Of a stretch of 64,000 nucleotides of DNA, positions 1 to 64,000 are shown piece after piece (the stretch's first letter is position 1; every line of letters starts with the position of its first letter). The notes beneath the pieces are model-generated. The model saw only the letters and a list, made by a program, of their open reading frames with translations. It was not told where the DNA came from and ran no database searches. This DNA comes from Nitrospirota bacterium (GTDB lineage: Bacteria; Nitrospirota; Thermodesulfovibrionia; Thermodesulfovibrionales; UBA1546): assembly GCA_009773185.1 (NCBI GenBank), contig WPIF01000001.1, positions 62,001 through 126,000 on the forward strand. The letters are read 5' to 3'. A program made the position numbers and the translations under genes.

Positions 1-1190
1 AGCCAGACAGCTAAAATAGCCGCGCCAGCTCTGCTTCTGAAAATCTGCGAGGCCCATCGCTCCCTGCCCTCTGCGCCCTGCTCTCTGCTCTCTGCCCTCT
101 GCCGACTGCCCCCGGCGCTTTTAAAAATTTCAGAGAGATTTCTTGCCAGAACAGGGCCCGCTATTATGCCGAGCAAAGGCACAAACCTCATTGCAGTGAA
201 TGAAAGAACAATAAAAGGCAATACAAGAAAAAGATGAATAAGGGACGGATATTTTTTAGCTTTTCCGGTCGAGCGTGAATAATAAACCATACCCCAATTT
301 AGAATAAACGATGCAGCAACAGCCAGAGACATAAGGTACGGCCATTTGATAAAACCCCACCTTGGACGCTGAAGCTCGATAATATTTATTCCCTGGCCCG
401 CTCCTGGGTTAAGCATGTTTTTCGCCTGATCCCCGGCTTGCCCCGTTAGAAAAAGCTTTCTAAGCGGGGCAAGCGAGGCCATGATATCATAACCGGCAGT
501 ATATTGGCTTATAAAATAAGGGCTCACAAGCGACATGGCAAAAGAGGCCGCAAAGACAAGAGCAATTGTCTTTATCTTTGCCCTCTGCTCTCTGCTCTCT
601 GCCCTTTTCCCATCCAGATACAGCTGAAGCATCCCGCCGGCGATAAAAGCCAGGAACGGAATAAACATCAGGCTTATGCTTACATGCATATTGGCCCATG
701 CCATGTGGACCAAAGGTAGGAGGTAAATGTATTTTTTGTTCTCATATAAAAAAGCATTAAGCGAAAAAACAGTGAAGGACAGAAAAACCATGAGAAATAT
801 ATCAGGCCTTTCTACAAAGCGGGGGCGGGTCATGATAATAACCACAGTCATCACGCCTATGGCAATTATATAATTTTTGTAAGGCTGGAGGGAATCTCTG
901 GTAAGAAAATAGAATGCAGTTGTTACCGTAACTGCTTTTAAGGCTATAACGCCATAGATATTAAAGAGATGCCAGGCGATATAAAAAACAAAGCCGAAAA
1001 GCCATGAAGCAGAAGCAAAGGGTTTTCCAAGCATGGGGTATGTGAAAGGCTCTGACTCAGGCAATCCCCTCAGATTGAAAATCTCCCTGCCGATGCTCAG
1101 ATGCGTCCACGCATCTGAATTCTCGATTTTTATAAGGGCAAGTACAAAAACAGAGAAAAGAAAAAATATAAAAAGAACCTTATCTCTCAT
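1..1190 (-). CDS. GT-C-type multi-pass membrane protein (3' end outside window)
   Basis: The frame opens at the ATG at 1190 (MRDKVLFIFF...) and stays open to the left edge, so the C-terminus is missing; about 396 residues are visible. The protein is very hydrophobic with many membrane helices. By eye it is a paralogue of the 5194-7320 protein: after the first helix it has an acidic segment 'SDAWTHL' matching 'SDYDLWGHL' there, and the later helices line up. Such proteins are usually lipid-linked-sugar glycosyltransferases of the GT-C fold; the substrate cannot be read. An AGGGAG lies only 2 nt before the ATG. Two tracts of a 7-bp repeat are translated in frame as charged loops at about residues 195-204 and 360-376. 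It is the last gene of a leftward run, 27 nt after the NHL lipoprotein gene. Confidence 0.7.
   Translation of the reverse strand, partial: MRDKVLFIFFLFSVFVLALIKIENSDAWTHLSIGREIFNLRGLPESEPFTYPMLGKPFASASWLFGFVFYIAWHLFNIYGVIALKAVTVTTAFYFLTRDSLQPYKNYIIAIGVMTVVIIMTRPRFVERPDIFLMVFLSFTVFSLNAFLYENKKYIYLLPLVHMAWANMHVSISLMFIPFLAFIAGGMLQLYLDGKRAESREQRAKIKTIALVFAASFAMSLVSPYFISQYTAGYDIMASLAPLRKLFLTGQAGDQAKNMLNPGAGQGINIIELQRPRWGFIKWPYLMSLAVAASFILNWGMVYYSRSTGKAKKYPSLIHLFLVLPFIVLSFTAMRFVPLLGIIAGPVLARNLSEIFKSAGGSRQRAESREQGAEGRERWASQIFRSRAGAAILAVW
61..110. repeat. 7-bp CTCTGCY-type repeat tract inside a coding sequence
   Basis: Degenerate tandem units of the type tctgctc/tctgccc. Because the unit is 7 bp, the coding strand cycles through frames and gives a charged stretch (SRQRAESREQGAEGRER) in the membrane protein at 1-1190. 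Related tracts are at 579-606 and 63863-63896, each also inside a GT-C gene. Confidence 0.8.
579..606. repeat. 7-bp CTCTGCY-type repeat tract inside a coding sequence
   Basis: Same family as 61-110. On the minus strand it reads in frame as RAESREQRA between two membrane helices of the 1-1190 protein. The frame was checked against the ATG at 1190 and is consistent. Confidence 0.8.
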
Positions 1191-1197
1191 TACTCCC

Positions 1198-1220
1198 TAC
1201 CCGCTAATCGCTACACGCTA
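1198..1220. repeat. CTACACGCTA-type short repeat
   Basis: Units of the form ctacacgcta / ctacccgcta / aatcgcta. This tract covers the spacer between the NHL gene and the gene at 1-1190. Related copies lie at 3645-3674, 16915-16943, 59901-59932 and 63827-63854. Confidence 0.75.
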
Positions 1221-2342
1221 TTTAACAGTCTGCCTCTTTTTCCACTTCTCGCTCATGTACTGAAAGACCTGGACTCTCCTGTTAAGCTGGTCTACAACAT
1301 AAATCATATCATTGCCGTCTATCGCAATGCCGGCAGGAACTGAGAACTGGCCAAAGCCCTCGCCGGCGTTGCCGACAAAAGTAAGCAAACGCCCTTCCTT
1401 ATTAAATACCTGGAAATTCTGAAAGGCCGCATCCACTATATATATATTGTCCTCTGAATCAAAGGCTATGCCTTTGGGCCTTACAAAATTGCCCGGCCTG
1501 TCTCCCAGCTCGCCGAACATTTTTATATGCTTCTCTGCAGGGTCAAAGACCTGAATCCTGAAGTTTCCTGTATCAACGACATAGAGATTGCCTGAGCTGT
1601 CAACAGCAATACTTGTAGGAAAATTAAATTCCCCTGCATCCCTTCCCCTCTTGCCGATGGTCCGGAGATGCTTTCCGTCAAGACTGTAGACCAGTACATA
1701 ATGTCTTTTAGCATCAGCAATATAGAGCTTCTGCCTTTTTTCATCAAGCGCCAACCCGCTCGGCGCATCAAATCCGCTTGCATGACTAATATCATAAAGA
1801 TAGTCGCCATTTTTATCATAAACAACCACCTTGTTAAGCGATGTATCCGCCACATAAATCTTTCCATCCCGGGAAATAGCAATTCCGGACGGAAGTCTGA
1901 GTTTCCCTCCTCCTAATGTTTCCTCACCGATAAAACTGAGTTTTTTGTTCTTCCTGTCAAAAACAAAAACTCTTCCCAGGTCAGACACATAAACCCTGGC
2001 TTCACTGTCAACAGCAACACCATAGGGTTTTCCAAGGACAGCCCTTACTTCCTCTCCAAGGAAGGCTGTTATAAAGCCTGTTTCTTCGACGTCCAGATTG
2101 GACTGCAATATCTCGACAAATTTTATTTTTGGCTCATCAGGAGGCGGGGGCCAGACAATGTCAGGGAATTTCCTTTCAGGCGCAGCGCAGCCAATCAAAA
2201 CAAAAAGGGCAAACAGGGAAAATAGTTTAAAAAGTTTCAATAGGGGAAAAAGTTTCATATAAGCAGTGGAAAAAGGGTAAAAAGTTTCAATAGTTTCAAC
2301 TTCTGCAACTTTCGTATTGTAATTTAATTTTAAGAGTTTCAT
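1218..2342 (-). CDS. NHL-repeat beta-propeller lipoprotein
   Basis: An exported lipoprotein: the hydrophobic stretch ends in a lipobox (VLIGC, Cys at about residue 52), followed by six NHL blades recognisable as '(P)xGIAxDxxxxIYVxD' (for example KPYGVAVD, FPTSIAVD, VPAGIAID) up to the C-terminus. NHL propellers are rigid protein-binding scaffolds; no catalytic role is implied. Two starts are possible. The ATG at 2342 has a good Shine-Dalgarno (GGAGGA, 9 nt upstream) but gives a 28-residue extension; the ATG at 2258 gives a standard 24-residue lipoprotein signal but has no Shine-Dalgarno. The signal region (KLFPLLKLFKLF...) is encoded by the local AACTTTT-type repeat. It lies directly downstream of the cytochrome gene and has a paralogue at 14743-15903. 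Confidence 0.88.
   Translation of the reverse strand: MKLLKLNYNTKVAEVETIETFYPFSTAYMKLFPLLKLFKLFSLFALFVLIGCAAPERKFPDIVWPPPPDEPKIKFVEILQSNLDVEETGFITAFLGEEVRAVLGKPYGVAVDSEARVYVSDLGRVFVFDRKNKKLSFIGEETLGGGKLRLPSGIAISRDGKIYVADTSLNKVVVYDKNGDYLYDISHASGFDAPSGLALDEKRQKLYIADAKRHYVLVYSLDGKHLRTIGKRGRDAGEFNFPTSIAVDSSGNLYVVDTGNFRIQVFDPAEKHIKMFGELGDRPGNFVRPKGIAFDSEDNIYIVDAAFQNFQVFNKEGRLLTFVGNAGEGFGQFSVPAGIAIDGNDMIYVVDQLNRRVQVFQYMSEKWKKRQTVK
2207..2341. repeat. AACTTTT-type degenerate repeat encoding a signal peptide
   Basis: Units such as agtttcaa, agtttaaa and agttgcaa, spaced by about 9-12 bp. On the minus strand they read AAACTTTTT... and encode the K-L-F repeats of the NHL lipoprotein signal sequence. 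The same family continues in the spacer at 2385-2475. Confidence 0.8.
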
Positions 2343-2384
2343 CTGAATCTATCCTCCATATTTTTTAAGTCTTTATTCACCTAT

Positions 2385-2475
2385 TGTAACTTTTTAACCT
2401 TATTACCCTATTTACCCTTTTGCAACTTTTGTAACTTTTGCAACTTTTGCACTTTTATAACTATTTAACTTTTTT
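2385..2475. repeat. AACTTTT-type degenerate repeat, intergenic
   Basis: The spacer between the cytochrome and NHL genes consists mostly of units like cttttgcaa, cttttgtaa and ttttaccc. There are no unique spacers between units, so it is a short tandem or microsatellite-like tract and not CRISPR. Confidence 0.8.
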
Positions 2476-2477
2476 TA

Positions 2478-3557
2478 TCACATCTTATGGCAATTAATGC
2501 ACATGTCCATGGCTGTGTTTGCTTTATACCTGAACAGCCTTATGGAATCCGAGCTGTGGGGATTATGGCAGCTTGAACATGAGAACTCCTTATCAGGCCT
2601 TGCAGGGTCTTTTCCGACCTCTATTTTTTCGCCTTTTTTTACCCGCCTGCCTTTAAGAGGATGGCCTGCAGCGGAAAAACCAATTGCAGCATGGGGATTC
2701 TTGGCAACATCGGCATGGCATGTCAGACAAAGGCCATTAATAGTTTTAGGAAAAAGAAATTTTTGCTTGTTTGCATGCGGGTTGTGGCAGGTTGTGCAGC
2801 CCATCATAACTGCTGCATGAACATTCTTCTTTGTGAACTCTGCCTTATCATGGCAGTTATAACACATATCAGGCTGTGAAGCCGTCAGAAGTTTTTCGCT
2901 GTCTCCCTGATGCGCAAAATGACATGAAGTGCACATGCCGCCGCTTACAGGCGCGTGGACTATCTTGTTCTCGAATTTTGATTTATTATGGCAGGTAAAA
3001 CACAATCCGGGCTGCGCAGACAGAAGCAGCTTCTCTCCCTCGGAGCTGTGCGGAGCATGACATGACGGGCACATGCCGCCTGCAACAGGAGCATGGACTA
3101 TTTTCTTTCCCGAAAAATTCTTCTTGTCATGACACATGAAACACAGTTCAGAGCCGCTTGCTAAAAGAAGCTTTGCATTATCTGATGTGTGCGGGTCGTG
3201 ACAGCCCGAACACATGCCGCCTGCAACAGGTGGGTGAATATTTTTCTTGGTAAACTTAGCCTTGTCATGGCAGCCATAACATAAATCAGGAGCAGCCGCT
3301 GACAGCCCTTTCGGAAACTTCGAGTTCTTCTGATGCGGCTCTGTATGGCAGGACTCGCAGCCCATCTGAAGCGCTGCATGAACAAATTTTTTGGTTGCCA
3401 TCTGTTTATGACACTTCTTGCAGTCAAGCTGCGCATAAACCTGTTCAGGCAAAAAATACAATACAAGGGTAAAAATAAACAGGGGAAAAAGTTTAAATAG
3501 GGGAAATAGTTTCAAGTTGTAACTTCTGCAACTTTTGTAACTTTCGAAACTTTTCAT
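2478..3557 (-). CDS. 13-haem c-type cytochrome, doubled-CXXCH family
   Basis: A 359-residue exported multihaem cytochrome. After a signal peptide ending near VYA|QLD it has 13 CXXCH motifs (CKKCH first, CINCH last), many in pairs with a recurring module: LCxxCH, about 20 residues, H(A/P)PVxGGMCxxCHxPH. This is the doubled-CXXCH architecture of periplasmic or outer-surface electron-transfer cytochromes; its redox partner is unknown. The ATG at 3557 follows GGAGG by 11 nt. The signal peptide (LKLFPLFKLFPLF) is encoded by the AACTTTT-type repeat. It lies between a TPR GT-C gene and the NHL lipoprotein gene, transcribed in the same direction. No CcmF/H or CcsBA maturation gene is in the window. 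Confidence 0.93.
   Translation of the reverse strand: MKSFESYKSCRSYNLKLFPLFKLFPLFIFTLVLYFLPEQVYAQLDCKKCHKQMATKKFVHAALQMGCESCHTEPHQKNSKFPKGLSAAAPDLCYGCHDKAKFTKKNIHPPVAGGMCSGCHDPHTSDNAKLLLASGSELCFMCHDKKNFSGKKIVHAPVAGGMCPSCHAPHSSEGEKLLLSAQPGLCFTCHNKSKFENKIVHAPVSGGMCTSCHFAHQGDSEKLLTASQPDMCYNCHDKAEFTKKNVHAAVMMGCTTCHNPHANKQKFLFPKTINGLCLTCHADVAKNPHAAIGFSAAGHPLKGRRVKKGEKIEVGKDPARPDKEFSCSSCHNPHSSDSIRLFRYKANTAMDMCINCHKM
3463..3552. repeat. AACTTTT-type repeat encoding the cytochrome signal peptide
   Basis: The minus strand reads in units like AAACTTTTTCCCCTATTTAAA and encodes the L-K-L-F-P-L-F repeats of the cytochrome signal peptide. The family continues upstream in the spacer at 3585-3640. Confidence 0.78.
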
Positions 3558-3584
3558 TTAAATTTTAGCCTCCATAATGCTACT

Positions 3585-3640
3585 ATTGCAACTATTTCAC
3601 CTTTTGTAACTCCTGCAACTTTTGTAACTGTTGAAACTTG
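3585..3640. repeat. AACTTTT-type repeat, intergenic
   Basis: Units caactatttc, cttttgtaac, tcctgcaac, ttttgtaac upstream of the cytochrome gene. It abuts the CTACACGCTA-type tract at 3645-3674, so two repeat families are stacked in one 150-bp spacer. Confidence 0.75.
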
Positions 3641-3644
3641 TTCA

Positions 3645-3674
3645 CTACACGCTACCCGCTAATCGCTACACGCT
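3645..3674. repeat. CTACACGCTA-type short repeat
   Basis: ctacacgctacccgctaatcgctacacgct; nearly the same unit order as 1198-1220. It sits between the GT-C gene at 3711 and the cytochrome gene. Confidence 0.75.
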
Positions 3675-5193: not shown

Positions 5194-7320
5194 TTACTTT
5201 TCCCTTAAATGTTTTTTGAAAATAACTTCCGCCTCTTTATTTTTCCCCTGCAACAGATAAACCCTCCTGAGCGCCTGATATGCCTCCGCCACAGGCTCAA
5301 GCTTGATCACTTCTTTAAATGATTCTTCTGCATCAGCAAGCCTCCCGGCTGCCATATATGCCTGTCCGAGATTGAAATATATTGCCGGTGACTGGTCGGG
5401 AGATAGTCTAATAGCATCCTTAAAATTACTGCTAGCTCCCCCCGCATCTCCCAAAGAATACATGATGTTCCCAAGCATGAATCTGGCAGTCCATGAATTC
5501 TCCGCATTTTCGATATTCTTTCTCACTTCTTCAGACGCGGACATAAGGATAGTCCTTTCCAGCCCGTAAGGTCTAAAGCGATATGTATCCGGATTAACAA
5601 TCCGCATCGAATATTCATCATTTATATCCTTGAACCCGGCTTCATTCTTAAGATAGAGCAGGCTGTAGTCATCCCAATATGCCAGCCTCCAATCACTGCT
5701 CCTGAAAAGATGATCTCTGAGATTAACGGCGTCAGAAGGGCTGTAATTTAAAAGAACAATATTAATTTTGTATTTATTCAAAAGCTCCTGCCACTCCATT
5801 TCCCCGGATAATATCTTTTCGTACTCGGCAAAAAATTTCCTGTGAAAGAAACGGTTGTCTATATAAACCTTTACGGATGGATATAACTCCCACACAAGAT
5901 AGCCCCCCCAACCGTGGAGATTGAACATATTGCCCTTTATCTCTTTATCTTTTATAAATTTTACGGCTCCTTCGGGGTAAGGCACGTTATCGAATTTCCT
6001 GAGATACCTTCTGTCGGTTACTATAAAAAAAATTGCTGCTGCAATCAGAGACAAAAGAAGAAGTCTTAATAAATAATTAATTTTGTCATTCCGGCCTGGC
6101 ATACTTCGCCGAAGCGGCTGCGAAGGCTGAATCCGAAATCCTTCTTTGGATTTGATGTCTTGCGCTGTCCGATCCTCGACAAGCGAGGATGACAGCTTGT
6201 GACGTCTTGTTGCCAGGCTGCTGATCCCGCTTAATCCAGCTACGATAACAGGCGCAGATGCGAAAACAAAATGGGGAATTCCCCTGTTTGCAATCCATGC
6301 TATCACAGAGAAAAACAACGCGATAAAAAGAAAATGAATCTTGATCCTTCTGAAAGAAAAAATAACAGCAATTACAAATATGCCGAAATATATCCAGAAA
6401 GGCAGATATCTTAATTCTGTCGGAGCCAGCAGCTCCTCTACGCCCGCAAATTGCTCTGACATAACAAGCAACGGCCAGATAACTGTTTTATATGTGAATG
6501 GATTTATGAGAGATGCTGCAGCTATGAGGATAAAGACAATTGTTAGTTTTTTTAAACCGGCCGTGTCTTCCTTTTTACTAATACGGTCATTAGTAAAGTC
6601 ACATAGATCACCCTCCCCTTCATCCCCTCCCCTCAAGGGCGGGGAAACCTTATAACCCTCTCCCCTGGAGGGAGAGGGTGAGGGGGCTTTACTTATGAAC
6701 TCCTTAGTAAGATAAACCCTGACCGCCTCAATGACAAGAAAGATAAACGGCACGACCAGACCCCAAGTACTTTCAGCATGGATATTCACCCATAAAAGCA
6801 TGACAACAGGCAGGATATATAAATATTGTGTGCGCCCCCTGCTGTACTGATGCAGGCTGAAGAGATTAATTAAAAGAAATACATAAGAAAAATGCTGCGG
6901 CCTTAAAACAAAACGATGCGAAGAAGCCAATACCCCAAGGGCCAGTACAAATACGATAACAGGAATATTGTCAGAATACAATCTGGCTGTCTTATACAGA
7001 ATAAAAAAAGAGAGCATCAGAAGAAGAAGCTGGAGAGAAACAAGAGATATCTCGCCGCCTGAGACATAAAGCCGGTAAGTTATTGCCTGGAATAACCACT
7101 CATGATTAAGATACGGAAATTCAGGCCAGCTGCAGTTAAAATAATGGGTTGTCAGTATCGAGCCTGTTTTGAAGAGATATTCTCCTGCCTTCAGATGGCC
7201 CCATAAATCATAGTCTGACAGCCTTCTGAGGGAAAGCACAAAAACAAGGCAAAAAAATCCTGCAATAAGCAGAATGTCCAGTATCCTGGCAGCCTTTGTC
7301 TTGTATGGCATTGCATCCAT
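5194..7320 (-). CDS. GT-C-type membrane protein with TPR tail, two repeat-derived loops
   Basis: A 708-residue multi-pass protein, paralogous to the protein at 1-1190, with a soluble region after the last helix and TPRs near the C-terminus (ARFMLGNIMYSLGDAGGA, AIYFNLGQAYMAAGRLADA). The soluble part (about 440-560) resembles the C-terminal domain of GT-C mannosyltransferases. Two insertions are plainly repeat-derived: residues about 211-237 (PSPSPSRGEG...PPLRGGDEGEG) and about 370-411 (a translated version of a dispersed intergenic repeat). Both keep the frame and lie at the same loops as the insertions in the 1-1190 protein. A TATAAT lies 6 nt before the ATG, suggesting a leaderless mRNA. Its divergent neighbour is the acyltransferase. 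Confidence 0.8.
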   Translation of the reverse strand: MDAMPYKTKAARILDILLIAGFFCLVFVLSLRRLSDYDLWGHLKAGEYLFKTGSILTTHYFNCSWPEFPYLNHEWLFQAITYRLYVSGGEISLVSLQLLLLMLSFFILYKTARLYSDNIPVIVFVLALGVLASSHRFVLRPQHFSYVFLLINLFSLHQYSRGRTQYLYILPVVMLLWVNIHAESTWGLVVPFIFLVIEAVRVYLTKEFISKAPSPSPSRGEGYKVSPPLRGGDEGEGDLCDFTNDRISKKEDTAGLKKLTIVFILIAAASLINPFTYKTVIWPLLVMSEQFAGVEELLAPTELRYLPFWIYFGIFVIAVIFSFRRIKIHFLFIALFFSVIAWIANRGIPHFVFASAPVIVAGLSGISSLATRRHKLSSSLVEDRTAQDIKSKEGFRIQPSQPLRRSMPGRNDKINYLLRLLLLSLIAAAIFFIVTDRRYLRKFDNVPYPEGAVKFIKDKEIKGNMFNLHGWGGYLVWELYPSVKVYIDNRFFHRKFFAEYEKILSGEMEWQELLNKYKINIVLLNYSPSDAVNLRDHLFRSSDWRLAYWDDYSLLYLKNEAGFKDINDEYSMRIVNPDTYRFRPYGLERTILMSASEEVRKNIENAENSWTARFMLGNIMYSLGDAGGASSNFKDAIRLSPDQSPAIYFNLGQAYMAAGRLADAEESFKEVIKLEPVAEAYQALRRVYLLQGKNKEAEVIFKKHLREK
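6085..6207. repeat. GTCATTCC...GGATGAC dispersed repeat inside a coding sequence
   Basis: Contains the hairpins cttcgccgaag (6104-6114) and atcctcgacaagcgaggat (6172-6190) and begins with gtcattcc, a layout common for dispersed intergenic palindromic repeats. Here it is read in frame within the gene at 5194-7320. Confidence 0.75.
6609..6688. repeat. CCCTCTCCC...GGGAGAGGG palindromic repeat inside a coding sequence
   Basis: A composite of two GC-rich inverted repeats, one around cccctcaagggcgggg and one around ccctctcccctggagggagaggg. It is read in frame as PSPSRGEG/PPLRGGDEGEG in the gene at 5194-7320. Its base composition differs sharply from the flanking AT-rich coding DNA. Confidence 0.8.
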
Positions 7321-7380: not shown

Positions 7381-8454
7381 ATGACCCTTATTGATAATAA
7401 GCAAAGGATATTCGAAGCTGACATCATCAGGTGTCTTTTTATCTTATATATTATCACCGTGCGTCATCCTATCGATTATATTGCACGTTTTATTGATAAA
7501 GCTTCTCTTGAAGACATACGCATTTATGTTCTTTTAAATAATACATTTGTACTAATTGCTCTTGGGATGTTCATATTCATTTCCGGTCTTCTGATTGCGC
7601 GAAGATATCCTGTGTTAAGAGACAGCAAAGAAAGAGCTTCATTTATAAAAGCAAGAATCTTCAGGATATACCCTTTATACTTACTTGCTCTTATTATCTT
7701 TACCTTTTTTATTGTTCCTGGTCCTTTCGAGCTACTATCATTTGCAGCCCACATTTTTTCACTAAATCTCCTGCTTTCCCCGTTGACCGGAACCCCTATT
7801 TTCACTCTATGGTTTGTAGGATTAATATTTTCCTATTACCTGCTATTTCCGGTAGTTATAAACAGCAGCGACAGGCTGTTTCGGACTGTAATACTTCTGG
7901 GTTTCATATTAAGCTTATTATCACTACTACATAAACACCTTGGCATTGTAGATGAGCGCGTGATTATTTATCTTCCTGTTTTCTTCATTGGCATATACTG
8001 CGGACGCAATGGATTAATGCATGTATTGCGCAGCAAAACAGTGGTGATGTCTTCTACTTTTATATTGATCCCTTCATTTTATTATAATCTCATACGATTA
8101 CAAGACAAAACAGTTTTGCCGAATGACAGCCTGACTATTTTCATTGTGTGTAACCTTGTCATGATATCATCTATAAGCCCTGTATGGAATCTGGCGCGAC
8201 TATTAGCATCAGCATTGGGAACAAACAGAGACTTTATCTCAAAAATAGCATATTACTCTTATTGCATGTACCTTTTTCACAGGATCATATTTTTCGTATT
8301 ACTTAAACTTTATTATCCTCATTCCGCAATCTCGACTCTTTTATATCTCATTATTGCAGGACTTCCTCTGACTTTAATTCTCTCTTCACTGATTCAGTCT
8401 GGATATGACAAATTCCTGACTAATACAATTTATAGCGAAGCATCTGCAAGATAA
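7381..8454 (+). CDS. Acyltransferase 3 (OafA-like) membrane protein
   Basis: A 357-residue protein with about ten predicted helices, opening with the pattern of acyltransferase-3 enzymes: a short N-terminus, FEADIIRCLFILYIITV, then HP in the first loop. The family O-acetylates or otherwise acylates sugars of surface polysaccharides and glycolipids in the inner membrane. It lacks a fused SGNH domain. There is no clear Shine-Dalgarno; TATAAA lies 10 nt upstream of the ATG. It is the first of three plus-strand genes (7381-10912), the only rightward genes supported in the window. Confidence 0.75.
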   Translation: MTLIDNKQRIFEADIIRCLFILYIITVRHPIDYIARFIDKASLEDIRIYVLLNNTFVLIALGMFIFISGLLIARRYPVLRDSKERASFIKARIFRIYPLYLLALIIFTFFIVPGPFELLSFAAHIFSLNLLLSPLTGTPIFTLWFVGLIFSYYLLFPVVINSSDRLFRTVILLGFILSLLSLLHKHLGIVDERVIIYLPVFFIGIYCGRNGLMHVLRSKTVVMSSTFILIPSFYYNLIRLQDKTVLPNDSLTIFIVCNLVMISSISPVWNLARLLASALGTNRDFISKIAYYSYCMYLFHRIIFFVLLKLYYPHSAISTLLYLIIAGLPLTLILSSLIQSGYDKFLTNTIYSEASAR

Positions 8455-8527
8455 ATATATTACAAAGCACTGCAGTTATCTTTTTATAAAATTATCCTTA
8501 AGATGCCTTTTTTGTATATAATATGCG

Positions 8528-9271
8528 ATGATAAGAAACAAGAAAGTAGTAGTCGTCCTTCCGGCATATAATGCTGAGAAGACTCTTGAAGCCACATATT
8601 CTGAGATACCCAAGGACATTGTAGACGAGATTATCCTTGTGGATGATGCAAGCAGTGATAAGACCGCAGATATGGCAAAATCACTGGGGATTAAAACCAT
8701 CGTCCACCCTGAGAATAAAGGCTACGGCGGCAATCAGAAGACCTGTTACAGGGAAGCCCTAAAACTGGGGGCTGATATAGTCATCATGTTACACCCTGAT
8801 TATCAATATACCCCAAAATTAATACCTGCCATGGCCTATCTTATAGAATCCGGAGAATTTGATGCAGTGCTCGGCTCAAGGATACTTTCAGGCGGGGCAT
8901 TGAGAGGAGGCATGCCTTTTTACAAATACCTCTCCAATAGGATACTGACATTCATTCAGAACATACTCCTTGGTCAAAAGCTATCGGAATATCACACAGG
9001 CTACAGAGCATTCAGGCGCGAAATACTCGAAAGACTTCCATTGGAAGAAAATTCAGATGATTTTGTCTTTGACAATCAGATGTTGAGCCAGATAATATTC
9101 TTCGGATATAAGGTCGGCGAGATAAGCTGTCCCGCAAAATATTTCGCGGAGGCGTCTTCTATAAATTTCAGGAGAAGCATTAAATATGGATTAGGCGTTC
9201 TTTTAACTGCGGTTAAATTTGCACTGCAAAAAACAGGGATAATAAATTCACCGTTGTTCCGAAAAAACTGA
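8528..9271 (+). CDS. GT2 glycosyltransferase, DPM1-like
   Basis: A 247-residue soluble GT-A enzyme. The N-terminus has [16 protein letters not shown] and the nucleotide-sugar acidic motif [13 protein letters not shown]; a second motif is [11 protein letters not shown], in which H-P-D-Y replaces the usual DADxQ. The family transfers a sugar from a nucleotide sugar to polyprenyl phosphate at the cytoplasmic face, giving the donor used by GT-C enzymes such as the next gene (9290-10912), which starts just after its stop. No C-terminal membrane helices are evident. Confidence 0.85.
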
Positions 9272-14742: not shown

Positions 14743-15903
14743 TTATTTCTGCCGCAATTGTAAAGCCTTCCATTTTTCACCAAGATACTGGAAGACCTGA
14801 ACCCTTGCATTAAACTGGTCAACAACATAAATCCTGTCATCAGCGTCTGCAGCAATCCCGGCAGGCATGGAGAATTGGCCCGGCTCCGTTCCTCCTTCAC
14901 CCACTTCAAGAAAAAAATTACCTTCCTTGTCAAATATAAAAATTTTCTGCAACGCTGCATCAACAACATACATATTACCCTCTGAATCAATAGTTATTCC
15001 TTTAGGGCGCACAAATGACTTTGGTTTGCTGCCCGACGAAATAGTCCTAAGAAATTTCCCCTCGCTGTTATAAACCTGCACCCTGAAATTTCCTGTATCC
15101 ACAACATATATATTCCCATGGGAATCGACTGCAATGTTCGTCGGGAAGCTTAACTTGCTCTTATCTGCTACCCGTCCCTCTATCAGAAAAAGGAATCTTC
15201 CGTCGAGTGTATAGGCCCTCACACTATTTGTCTTGGCATCAGCAACATATAACCTGCCCCTATCTGAATCCACTGCCATCCCCGACGGGCTCTTCAGTTC
15301 GCCTGTCCGACCGATCTCCCGTATAAATTCTCCGTTTCTGTTATACACAAATAACTTTCGGGCTGTTACATCGCTCACATATACTCTTCCATCAGAAGAC
15401 ACTGCAATACCTATCGGCATTCTCAACTGGCCTTCCCCAAGTTTGTCTCCCATAAATAAAAGGCTGCCGCCCTTCCTGTCAAAGACAAATACCCTGCCTA
15501 CATCCGTCACATAAATCCTGCCCTCTTTGTCAACCGTAACGCCATATGGCCTTATCAGCCTTCCTTCTATATCTTCTTCACCCCCAATAAAGTTTTTCAG
15601 CCATCCGCTTTTAGCCTCTGGCTGCAGATCGTCTTTCGATTCAATTATTTCACCAAACTTTATCCTCGGCTCAGCAGGCGGAAGCGGCCAGACGGTATTT
15701 ACAGGTTTTTCAGGCATCCGCTCAACCTCTTCAAAGGCACAGCCCGTTATGAAAAACAGGTTAAAAAGGATAAGAAGCTGCAAAAGTTTCAAAAAATTAA
15801 GCAGGGTAAATAGTTGCAATAGTTTCAGAAGCTGCAATAGTTTCAACTTAAAACTTTTTACCCTTTTATAACTTTTTACACTTTTAAAATGCACTTTTTT
15901 CAA
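14743..15903 (-). CDS. NHL-repeat beta-propeller lipoprotein (paralogue of 1218-2342)
   Basis: Six NHL blades in the same order as in the 1218-2342 protein (RPYGVTVD, MPIGIAVS, SPSGMAVD, FPTNIAVD, RPKGITID, MPAGIAAD), ending in the shared VYVVDQ-type motif and RVQVFQYLGEKWK. The lipobox is FFITGC. The signal region is unusually long and almost wholly made of K-L-L-Q-L units encoded by the AACTTTT-type repeat. No ATG exists between the in-frame stop at 15922 and the signal; the start is TTG at 15903 or GTG at 15894. It follows a TPR GT-C gene directly and precedes a GT39 gene. Confidence 0.85.
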   Translation of the reverse strand: MKKVHFKSVKSYKRVKSFKLKLLQLLKLLQLFTLLNFLKLLQLLILFNLFFITGCAFEEVERMPEKPVNTVWPLPPAEPRIKFGEIIESKDDLQPEAKSGWLKNFIGGEEDIEGRLIRPYGVTVDKEGRIYVTDVGRVFVFDRKGGSLLFMGDKLGEGQLRMPIGIAVSSDGRVYVSDVTARKLFVYNRNGEFIREIGRTGELKSPSGMAVDSDRGRLYVADAKTNSVRAYTLDGRFLFLIEGRVADKSKLSFPTNIAVDSHGNIYVVDTGNFRVQVYNSEGKFLRTISSGSKPKSFVRPKGITIDSEGNMYVVDAALQKIFIFDKEGNFFLEVGEGGTEPGQFSMPAGIAADADDRIYVVDQFNARVQVFQYLGEKWKALQLRQK

Positions 15904-61799: not shown

Positions 61800-63182
61800 C
61801 TAACCGTTCCCCCTGCTCATATACCATTTCATTACTTTAAGCCCTGCCCTTGCCTTGTCAAGCAACTCTTTCAGGCTCCTGACCTCCCTGAATCTTTCCC
61901 ATATATACCATAGACTAAGATAAAATCTTCTGTGCGCCTCTTTTAAAATCCTGTTCAATTTTTCTTCATCCCAGTTCTCGTTTATTATAGCCGGCCTTCT
62001 GATGTCCTTGTCCATTGGATTCTGTGCATCTACTTCTCTGTACCATCCCATCTTAATCGCATCATCATAAAGTTTTGTTCCAGGTGTGGGTGACAGGACA
62101 CTGAACTGTGCATAGGCTGGTTTTATCTCTTTGGCAAACCCTATTGTCACAAGCTCATCCTCGTATGTCTCAACCGGTATGCCCAGAACAAAATAGGCCA
62201 TTGGTTTTATGCCCGCTTTTCTTGTAAGCTCAAAAGCCCTTCTTATCTGCTCGACTTTTGTACCTTTATTCAGATAATCAAGGCCTTTCTGATTTCCGCT
62301 TTCAACCCCATAGGCTATCATTGAACAGCCGGCTTTTTTCATCCACCTAAGGGTTTCTTCCTCAACAATGTTCACCCTGCCTTCGCATTTCCATTCTATC
62401 TTTAACCCTCTCTCAAGGATGCCCCGGCATATCTCCATAACCCGGTCTTTCTTAACTGTGAAGAGGTCATCGTAAATAATTATGGAATTAATCCTGAATT
62501 CCTTATTAACAAATTCCATCTCATCAAGGACATTTAAAGCGCTCCTCGATCTCCATCTGGAGCCGAAAACAGCCTTGTCGCAGAATATGCAGTGGTATGG
62601 ACAGCCCCTTGATGTAAACATGGTCGTCACCTTTCCTGGTGACAATATGTACCTGTATCTGTCATTCGGCAACAGGTGCCTTGCAGGAAAAGGAAGATTA
62701 TCAAGATTATCTACAAATGGCGCAGGCGGATTACTGAAATCCTTTGTAATCAGGCCCGGGACCTTACTGATATCATTGCCTGATTCCAATGCACCCAGAA
62801 GCAGCGGCAGGCTCACCTCTCCTTCGCCTTGTACCGCATAGTCTATGTCAGAACACTGTTCGAATATCTTCCTGCCCGCAACAGAGACATGCGGCCCGCC
62901 CATAATTATATGTTTTGCATATTTCCTTGCTGCCTTTACGACCCTGAATGCATTGTCTATCACCGGAGTCATCCCTGTAATGCCAATAACATCGGAGGCT
63001 GTTGCCTTAAGCCTCTCTTCAAGTGAGTGCATATCCAGACGTTCTGCAAAGGCGTCTATAATAGAAACCTTGTGCCCTTTAGCCTCCATAACAGCAGCAA
63101 GGTAAGCTATTCCCAATGGCGGCACAATAATGTCCTCCCTGACAATCTGCCTTGGCGGCGGCTGTATAAAAAGAACTTTCAT
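61800..63182 (-). CDS. B12-binding radical SAM protein
   Basis: A 460-residue protein: a cobalamin-binding N-terminus (VPPLGIAYLAAVMEAKGHKVSIIDA, IIMGGPHVSVAGRKI) and a radical SAM domain with FTSRGCPYHCIFC. It is related to 18655-20094. The start shares one base with the stop of the GT-C gene upstream (TGATG), so the two are probably co-translated. Substrate unknown. Confidence 0.9.
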   Translation of the reverse strand: MKVLFIQPPPRQIVREDIIVPPLGIAYLAAVMEAKGHKVSIIDAFAERLDMHSLEERLKATASDVIGITGMTPVIDNAFRVVKAARKYAKHIIMGGPHVSVAGRKIFEQCSDIDYAVQGEGEVSLPLLLGALESGNDISKVPGLITKDFSNPPAPFVDNLDNLPFPARHLLPNDRYRYILSPGKVTTMFTSRGCPYHCIFCDKAVFGSRWRSRSALNVLDEMEFVNKEFRINSIIIYDDLFTVKKDRVMEICRGILERGLKIEWKCEGRVNIVEEETLRWMKKAGCSMIAYGVESGNQKGLDYLNKGTKVEQIRRAFELTRKAGIKPMAYFVLGIPVETYEDELVTIGFAKEIKPAYAQFSVLSPTPGTKLYDDAIKMGWYREVDAQNPMDKDIRRPAIINENWDEEKLNRILKEAHRRFYLSLWYIWERFREVRSLKELLDKARAGLKVMKWYMSRGNG

Positions 63183-64000
63183 CAGCCACTTCTTTCTGTG
63201 CCGGATATAATTTCTGAAACCTTAAATGCGCCCAAGGCAAAAATTACAAAGTATCCCAATGAAGGAAGATACATCCTGTGCTCAAAGATAACATCAGGCA
63301 GAATCGCTATTGAAGATGTAGGCGCAAGAATAAGGAAAAACCACAGGATGAAAAAAGATATAACCTTCTGCCTCTTAAACAAAAACACTGCGAGTCCTAA
63401 AAATGTAATAATGCCGATACCTCCAAATAACGTTGCAAGAGGGGTTAAAAGGCCTCTGGAAATCCCATAGTTATAATCTAAATTCTGATTTATGGGAAGT
63501 ATCAGGAGCTTGATATATGTCCATATCACCCTGAACTGCGTAAGAAAATATTCATGTCTTGATATTGAGCTTGTTTCACCCTCTATGCTTGAGGTAGGAG
63601 GAAGACTAACAGCATCTGTTGCTACAAATGATTTGATCAGCCCCCCCATAAAATACATCAAAGAAATAAGTGTCATAAAAAACAAAAGATGTACAGCCCA
63701 TCTTCGGGAAAGGGTTTTAATATCGCCGTCAGACAGAAAAAAGAAGTCATATAGAAGGATAACAACAGGCAGTGTTACAGCTATCTCTTTTGAACCCATG
63801 GCAAACACAGCTGAAATAAGCGAAACAGCGTATAGCGTGTAGCGTGCAGCGTATGACTTTAACTGCTCTCTGCTATCTGCTCTTTGCTCTCTGCTTAAGC
63901 GGCTTGCCTTTATAAACATGACCAGCGACAGCAGATAAAAAAACGACGAAAGTATTTCAGCCCTCTGGACTATATATGTGACTGCCTGTGTCTGAATCGG
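63182..64000 (-). CDS. TMTC-like GT-C membrane protein (5' end outside window)
   Basis: The frame is open to the right edge: reading begins PIQTQAVTYIVQRAEILSS, which matches HPIQTEAVSYISQRYESLAS of the 15922 protein, so the N-terminus lies beyond 64000 and the Met at 63919 is internal. It continues GSKEIAVTLPVV and ends after the last helix (EIISGTERSG) without the TPR of its paralogues. A repeat-derived loop (SREQRADSREQ...AARYTLYA) occupies the same loop as in the 15922 protein. Confidence 0.8.
   Translation of the reverse strand, partial: PIQTQAVTYIVQRAEILSSFFYLLSLVMFIKASRLSREQRADSREQLKSYAARYTLYAVSLISAVFAMGSKEIAVTLPVVILLYDFFFLSDGDIKTLSRRWAVHLLFFMTLISLMYFMGGLIKSFVATDAVSLPPTSSIEGETSSISRHEYFLTQFRVIWTYIKLLILPINQNLDYNYGISRGLLTPLATLFGGIGIITFLGLAVFLFKRQKVISFFILWFFLILAPTSSIAILPDVIFEHRMYLPSLGYFVIFALGAFKVSEIISGTERSG
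63827..63854. repeat. CTACACGCTA-type repeat inside a coding sequence
   Basis: agcgtatagcgtgtagcgtgcagcgtat; reads in frame as YAARYTLYA in the GT-C gene at 63182. It encodes the same peptide motif (A-x-RYTLYA) as 16915-16943. Confidence 0.8.
63863..63896. repeat. 7-bp CTCTGCY-type repeat inside a coding sequence
   Basis: Units tgctctc, tgctatc, tgctctt. Reads in frame as SREQRADSREQ. It abuts the tract at 63827, so two families are stacked within one loop. Confidence 0.8.

Follow-up and report, generated by a model that had tools for sequence, protein, structure and literature searches.

A window of 64,000 nucleotides from the genome of a Nitrospirota bacterium (the window being this whole stretch) carries on its reverse strand a gene (1218..2342) for a 374-residue lipoprotein with an NHL beta-propeller (Pfam NHL, 3.8e-33). 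The first-pass annotation of this gene raised the question of whether the signal peptide of an exported protein can be made from the same dispersed repeat that fills the adjoining spacer. The start accompanied by a Shine-Dalgarno sequence (GGAGGAT) is codon 1 at position 2342, giving a signal of 52 residues from Met1, or of 24 residues if it is read from the internal Met29. The segment from Met29 to Cys52, MKLFPLLKLFKLFSLFALFVLIGC, has the features of a lipoprotein signal, including a Lys/Arg n-region, a hydrophobic core, and a lipobox (LIGC) of the form [LVI][ASTVI][GAS]C, with the NHL domain next.

The DNA of this signal region (codons 1-52; 2187..2342, reverse strand) has a period of 9 bp, equal to three codons: AAACTTTTT CCCCTATTG AAACTTTTT AAACTATTT TCCCTGTTT GCCCTTTTT. 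Matches to this 9-bp family lie on the reverse strand at 2212, 2221, 2239, 2271 and 2280. The array is degenerate, with unit matches of about 70-90%, and its self-similarity at a lag of 9 exceeds that of codon-order shuffles both for codons 1-52 (p = 0.0015) and for codons 29-52 (p = 0.0035). Another 9-bp array (unit TAACTTTT/CTTTTGCAA) was detected by TRF in the spacer at 2387..2474, where the family sense is on the forward strand (matches at 2424 and 2433). Read on the gene strand, the spacer copies are AAAAGTTGC, so that they run opposite to the gene and to the copies in its signal. The proposal that signal and spacer share an AACTTTT-type repeat is borne out by the 9-bp period and the TRF array, with the correction that the two sets of copies are inverted to each other.

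This family is concentrated near the locus. We sampled 1.61 Mb of the 2.79-Mb genome of the window (58%; G000 below) in 20-kb stretches. A degenerate pattern for two units of the family matches this sample 38 times versus about 1 expected; three Markov simulations gave 0, 4 and 0 matches. Most of the matches (28/38) reside in the window or in the 40-60 kb interval of its contig (C15) just before the window, and three other genomes exhibit the pattern at background density only.

Signals of the same look are found in a neighbouring gene and in two NHL paralogues. The adjacent gene (2478..3557, reverse strand) encodes a multihaem c-type cytochrome (Paired_CXXCH_1, 3.1e-70) whose signal, LKLFPLFKLFPLFIFTLVLYFLPEQVYA, is written in the 9-bp family (codon-shuffle p = 0.0005 for codons 1-43), although the h-region taken alone is not significant (p = 0.18). 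TRF places two arrays in this signal region (3476..3554), one in the h-region (3476-3512) and one of opposite orientation in the n-region (3517-3554), as well as a forward-strand 9-bp array upstream of the gene (3578..3639). A second NHL lipoprotein (14743..15903, reverse strand), which shares 52% identity with the first, has the signal LKLLQLLKLLQLFTLLNFLKLLQLLILFNLFFITGC, which is overlapped by TRF arrays and has an inverted pair of 9-bp arrays in its start region (15764..15889). In a third, located about 8 kb outside the window (L049 13264-14328), an array likewise overlaps the signal. By itself, neither paralogue reaches significance when its codons are shuffled (p = 0.09 at a lag of 9 for the second and p = 0.11 for the third). 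Next to the cytochrome gene there is also a dispersed 7-bp array, CTACACGCTACCCGCTAATCGCTACACGCT (3645..3674, forward strand), whose exact reverse complement is present in the orthologous spacer of a genome of the same genus (G003), and a 23-base part of which recurs, as reverse complement, at window positions 1197-1219.

The pattern extends well beyond this locus. When an array is counted as overlapping a signal at 20 bp or more, TRF arrays overlap 26 of the 204 predicted signals in G000 (12.7%), versus 12/916 internal transmembrane segments (1.3%) and 9/703 N-termini without a hydrophobic segment (1.3%), which corresponds to an odds ratio of 11 (p = 5e-12 against transmembrane segments and 4e-11 against non-signal N-termini). 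About one in eight predicted signal peptides of this Nitrospirota bacterium is thus written in dispersed short-repeat DNA. Signals were called by a home-made hydrophobicity rule combined with a cleavage or lipobox motif, on home-made gene calls, and a few of the resulting calls are doubtful or false (L157 1422). The excess persists when the contig of the window is taken out (19/180 signals versus 10/792, p = 1.9e-8). It recurs in G026, a genome from another family, where arrays overlap 7/55 signals versus 4/238 internal transmembrane segments (p = 0.001), with a weaker excess over other N-termini (p = 0.013).

Multi-copy short-unit arrays are mainly intergenic in G000, where TRF coverage is 2.7% of intergenic DNA versus 0.4% of gene bodies. 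The units found in its signals are numerous and unrelated, of 6, 7 or 9 bp and mostly 7 bp (TTCACTG, CTCTGCT, ATTCTGG, CTACACG, ATCTTGC, AAGCCTT), and so the AACTTTT unit has no unique role. The owners of these signals are conserved exported families, among them TolB, LptE, an OEP/TolC-type protein, a peptidase M23 (Peptidase_M23), a secretin, a D-Ala-D-Ala carboxypeptidase-like protein, a MauG-like enzyme and multihaem cytochromes.

CTCTGCC-type 7-bp arrays lie at window positions 62-113 and 575-602, within a long open reading frame (1-1190, reverse strand) or at its end, and the same family makes signals at L049 15949 and L144 4996. At the other end of the window, a membrane-like protein (63182-63919; array 63863-63895) has an N-terminus, REQRADSREQLKSYAARYTLYAV, composed of two adjoining 7-bp families, AGAGAGC then TACACGC. 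Two consecutive exported genes at L139 5941-7769 have mosaic signals; in that of the secretin, a single peptide combines units of AAATTCA, CTATGCG and TTCACTA. The alignment of the secretin with its 96% identical orthologue in G001 begins only at residue 27. Long near-perfect arrays with 25- and 14-bp units (AATAGGGCAATT and TTTAATAGGGAAGT; L066 17974-18119 and 18698-18783) belong to another type than the short degenerate ones.

Arrays are also kept in frame within protein genes other than at signals. A 7-bp array encoding NCQKSQLSAISHQPSDCC lies inside a DNA polymerase III delta' gene (L045 8360-8389, in ORF 7534-8553), and another, TPLSALGSQLSALSYP, lies inside an ATP-grasp gene (L073 6274-6307, in ORF 5764-6432). 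Both resemble tolerated loop insertions, and the delta' match spans 167 residues for a 160-position stretch of the profile.

The arrays are arranged in a distinctive manner. Among 53 adjacent pairs, same-family arrays within 250 bp of each other are inverted in 16 cases and direct in 3, compared to 1.3% inverted and 0.9% direct for random array pairs. The inverted pairs of G000 have a median loop of 13 bp, and a purine-rich arm precedes a pyrimidine-rich arm in 17/19 of them (p = 7e-4) and in 6/6 in G026. In several genes the inverted pair is itself the signal. At L051 5988, for example, a AGAATTCAGAATTCAG arm encodes RIQNSGVRSQNKK and a ATTCTGGATTCTGG arm encodes YSGFWILISVF, and the same layout is seen at L057 3936, L153 8321, L139 5941 and L148 16541. 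For arrays in signals, the pyrimidine content of the sense strand averages 43% on the n-side and 73% on the h-side, a difference that the amino acids themselves dictate in part. NHL orthologues at L014 and L017 likewise have purine-arm n-regions (GKGIGKGK and KIKVEVKVKVKKK) followed by pyrimidine-arm h-regions. No full-length element is common to the arrays, which vary in unit, order and length. No mobility enzyme could be linked to the arrays. We considered RAYT transposases as possible movers; PF01797 is found in 30 of 41 genomes, including the repeat-poor G038 and G036; its presence shows no correlation with repeat-rich genomes and is equal in repeat-poor ones.

Inverted pairs invite a regulatory reading, wherein hairpins act as terminators, stabilize mRNAs or sequester ribosome-binding sites, and the coding of signals is a side effect. 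Some predicted stems are indeed strong. At the focal gene, the spacer array, the Shine-Dalgarno sequence with the start, and the signal array (2195..2474, reverse strand) are predicted by ViennaRNA to form an RNA stem-loop around the start (-60.8 kcal/mol, z = -3.15), other stems reach z = -4.4, and the arms enclose the NHL start region in both G000 and G003. However, the stems are not significant at the cytochrome gene (z = -0.44) or at the second NHL gene (z = -0.93), so that a uniform RNA structure over the start can be rejected, and several array signals are unpaired. Bidirectional or intrinsic terminators are likewise disfavoured, given that the nine inverted pairs located between genes in G000 and G026, admittedly a small number, all lie outside convergent spacers; such spacers make up 89/628 of those of at least 60 bp in G000. 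Moreover, a regulatory role leaves the excess in signals over other N-termini unexplained. Because strong stems are predicted at some genes and are absent at others, we regard regulation as a possible addition, and consider it improbable as the main explanation.

If dispersed repeats have supplied signal peptides, then orthologous proteins should be informative. We compared the locus with relatives whose genomes are nearly all MAGs (G001 being 9% contaminated). In G003 the cytochrome-NHL gene pair is conserved at the same locus, and the NHL signal, MMHLINLFKKLHAIRYTLLAVLFLASCAAPERKFPD, is written in a 7-bp repeat, CTACACGCTATACGCTATACGCT (7-lag p = 0.0005). The spacer of G003 holds this 7-mer reversed, just as the spacer of the window holds the 9-mer reversed. 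At the junction of signal and mature sequence, MMHLINLFKKLHAIRYTLLAVLFLASC in G003 and LLKLFKLFSLFALFVLIGC in the window are each followed by AAPERKFPD. The orthologous cytochrome is 84% identical, and its signal, MVSGKRGLVKSKKFIALYIIIVVLSAFSFYGTAHA, lacks the 9-bp repeat (9-lag p = 0.82) and exhibits a weak 7-lag periodicity (p = 0.004). One short-read contig of G003 (C341; L006/L191) ends in the NHL gene just past the signal, as if the assembly broke at the repeat, and a second contig (C92) has the same NHL start.

Of 60 lipobox-bearing NHL orthologues that come from named genomes, 8 have signals that are repetitive at p <= 0.01 (0.6 expected), with the units TACCTT, AAGGTT/AACCTT, ACGCTAC, TTACTGC and ATTTGTC. 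The comparison suggested by the first-pass annotation thus came out as it had anticipated, in that mature domains align and signals do not, and orthologues without the focal repeat family carry different signals rather than the same one. The NHL signal of G036 is a 7-bp repeat even though the G036 sample is repeat-poor.

The clearest exchange is seen in a TolC-type gene. In the congeners G000 and G001 the proteins share the start MWMHTK and the mature DNA is 96.5% identical, whereas the signals are only 35% identical (shuffled mean 28, maximum 39) and hence non-homologous, being different 7-mer inverted pairs: ATTCTGG in G000 and GCTGTCA in G001. We place this exchange on the G001 side because the gene of G003, although more distant (74% mature identity), retains 80% signal identity to G000. 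Upstream of the gene, the DNA of G000 and G001 shows no more than 79% identity, and therefore a recombination event close to the signal and a replacement in situ are equally likely. Similarly, within the genus of G026, mature sequences are 89-92% identical and signals differ. These signals are not hypervariable, however. The second NHL signal of the window is unchanged in the congener G002 (92.7% identical DNA, gap-free), so signal exchange is episodic rather than constant.

Tandem repeats in signal peptides bring to mind contingency loci, in which slippage switches a protein on and off. The signals of Neisseria opa (CTCTT; PMC3960869) and Helicobacter pylori oipA (CT; PMC10564699) are partly encoded by phase-switching repeats in the leader, as part of the signal is here, and the repeats in our genomes are located exactly in the signals of surface proteins. 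A change in copy number of a 7-bp unit would also shift the frame, for instance in the LptE signal, which contains four near-perfect CTCTGCT units. Nevertheless, phase variation seems quite unlikely to account for these arrays. The opa and oipA units are perfect repeats of 5 or 2 bp that act as on/off switches for surface proteins, whereas the focal unit of 9 bp preserves the frame and is not near-perfect, and the proteins concerned here include exported housekeeping proteins such as LptE and TolB, which are improbable switch targets. Most arrays are poor slippage substrates because they are degenerate and have 2-5 units, and the replacement of one family by another between species is not slippage.

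A slightly less probable alternative is low complexity, by which signals rich in Lys, Leu and Phe in an AT-rich genome merely look repetitive and have no relation to dispersed repeats. Hydrophobic codons do share a T at the second position, and the cytochrome h-region and the second NHL signal are weak cases. Yet a separate codon-shuffle test in G000 is positive for 11.3% of signals versus 1.4% of internal transmembrane segments, which are equally hydrophobic, and 1.4% of other N-termini. The units in signals also match intergenic arrays, and those of 7 bp ignore the codon frame. Finally, samples from the repeat-poor G038 and G036 exhibit no excess of arrays in signals, and of 18 orthologous signal pairs, 7 are repeat-coded in G000 and 0 in G038.

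Mis-called starts, such that arrays are open 5' untranslated DNA and the real signals lie downstream, are the least probable explanation: some reading frames are clearly over-extended (in L052 14610-15749 an array lies ahead of MRVIIAGGGTGGH), but the focal, TolC-type, TolB, LptE and cytochrome genes have no other signal between array and mature domain, lipobox or AxA sites directly follow the arrays, and the TolC-type start MWM is common to three species although the array differs.

Taken together, the codon shuffles, the genome-wide excess and the orthologues with other repeats support the original idea that repeats build export signals, with the function of those signals predicted from sequence. 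Parts of that idea have to be revised. The AACTTTT unit had been proposed to encode Lys-Leu-Phe when in frame and thereby to be pre-adapted as a hydrophobic segment, but the 9-bp family is also read in other frames (as NFC or TFV; L049 12264-13151). Furthermore, six-frame translation of intergenic 7- and 9-bp arrays gave open and hydrophobic sequence in 5.9% of frames, compared to 6.3% for random spacer. The repeat class has no special pre-adaptation, and any AT-rich spacer would serve. We also saw no growth of signals by added units, and so replacement or recombination fits better than the expansion that had been suggested.

We put the probability at roughly three in four that dispersed arrays are tolerated as working Sec or lipoprotein signals and are exchanged over time while the mature protein is conserved. 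Short degenerate arrays with units of 6, 7 or 9 bp from many families are dispersed through this Thermodesulfovibrionales-type genome. They often form inverted pairs around a short loop, in which the purine-rich arm usually precedes the pyrimidine-rich one. Under this model, arrays that lie or land at the 5' end of an exported-protein gene could supply, from the purine-rich arm, an n-region that is polar and in many cases basic and, from the pyrimidine-rich arm, an h-region rich in Leu, Phe, Ser and Cys. All that constrains a signal peptide is its charge, hydrophobicity and cleavage site, and signals would therefore be the one coding region that tolerates such DNA, provided that the frame and the polar-then-hydrophobic order are maintained. 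One array might later be swapped for another by replacement, by drift of the unit, or by a recombination event that breaks close to the signal. The lipoprotein h-region of the focal gene would come from the 9-bp family, with inverted copies in the 5' spacer. We infer that copying is how the arrays spread, and that their excess in signals reflects tolerance and not positive selection. The repeat-coded signals presumably work in export, judging from their sequence features.

A bolder version of this model is that the dispersal of short inverted arrays of the purine-to-pyrimidine kind keeps providing exported proteins with new signal peptides. On either strand such a palindrome runs from a purine arm to a pyrimidine arm, and hence from a polar or basic n-region to a hydrophobic h-region, so that it might serve as an orientation-free signal-peptide cassette. 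We consider this a tentative possibility, and one that is rather doubtful at present.

The Rickettsia palindromic element, a long conserved element of about 100-150 bp that is inserted in diverse proteins, differs from the short arrays described here, which are enriched in export signals. As far as the citing article relates, palindromic repeats in that genus lie in frame in protein-coding genes, as here (Ogata et al. 2000, cited in PMC2759123). The closest precedent for the idea itself concerns a single gene, Yersinia YPO1552, whose predicted signal peptide includes the enterobacterial RU-2 element, the signals of its relatives being unrelated (Delihas 2007, PMC2759123). RU-2 is one long, defined MITE-like element, whereas here many short degenerate families of 6, 7 or 9 bp write about one-eighth of predicted signals and are swapped between congeners. 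The TAACTGA heptamer arrays of Beggiatoaceae (MacGregor 2015, PMC4679880) are likewise dispersed 7-bp arrays that are mostly intergenic and lie in part inside reading frames, some of them in frame at the protein periphery. They differ in forming one family of direct repeats, and of 7 bp rather than the 9 bp of the focal family; the term 'signal peptide' is absent from that article. In Enterobacterales, whole signals are gained and lost while the mature protein is kept, and the authors of that survey found no transposable elements near these events (PMC5952966), whereas the exchanged sequence here is recognisable repeat DNA. What is new relative to these precedents is the scale, the many short families, the inverted-pair layout and the exchanges between congeners.

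Signal peptides change quickly in evolution and have little sequence in common, and the source of new ones is rarely visible. In this bacterium and its relatives, dispersed repeats appear to have been used repeatedly as material for export signals, as judged from predicted signals and their orthologues. This would account for the odd repeated-peptide signals of uncultured Nitrospirota, and gene-calling and orthology pipelines should treat the N-termini in such genomes with caution, as these may be repeat DNA. If our main reading is correct, the origin and turnover of export signals would become directly testable, because their source is recognisable DNA.
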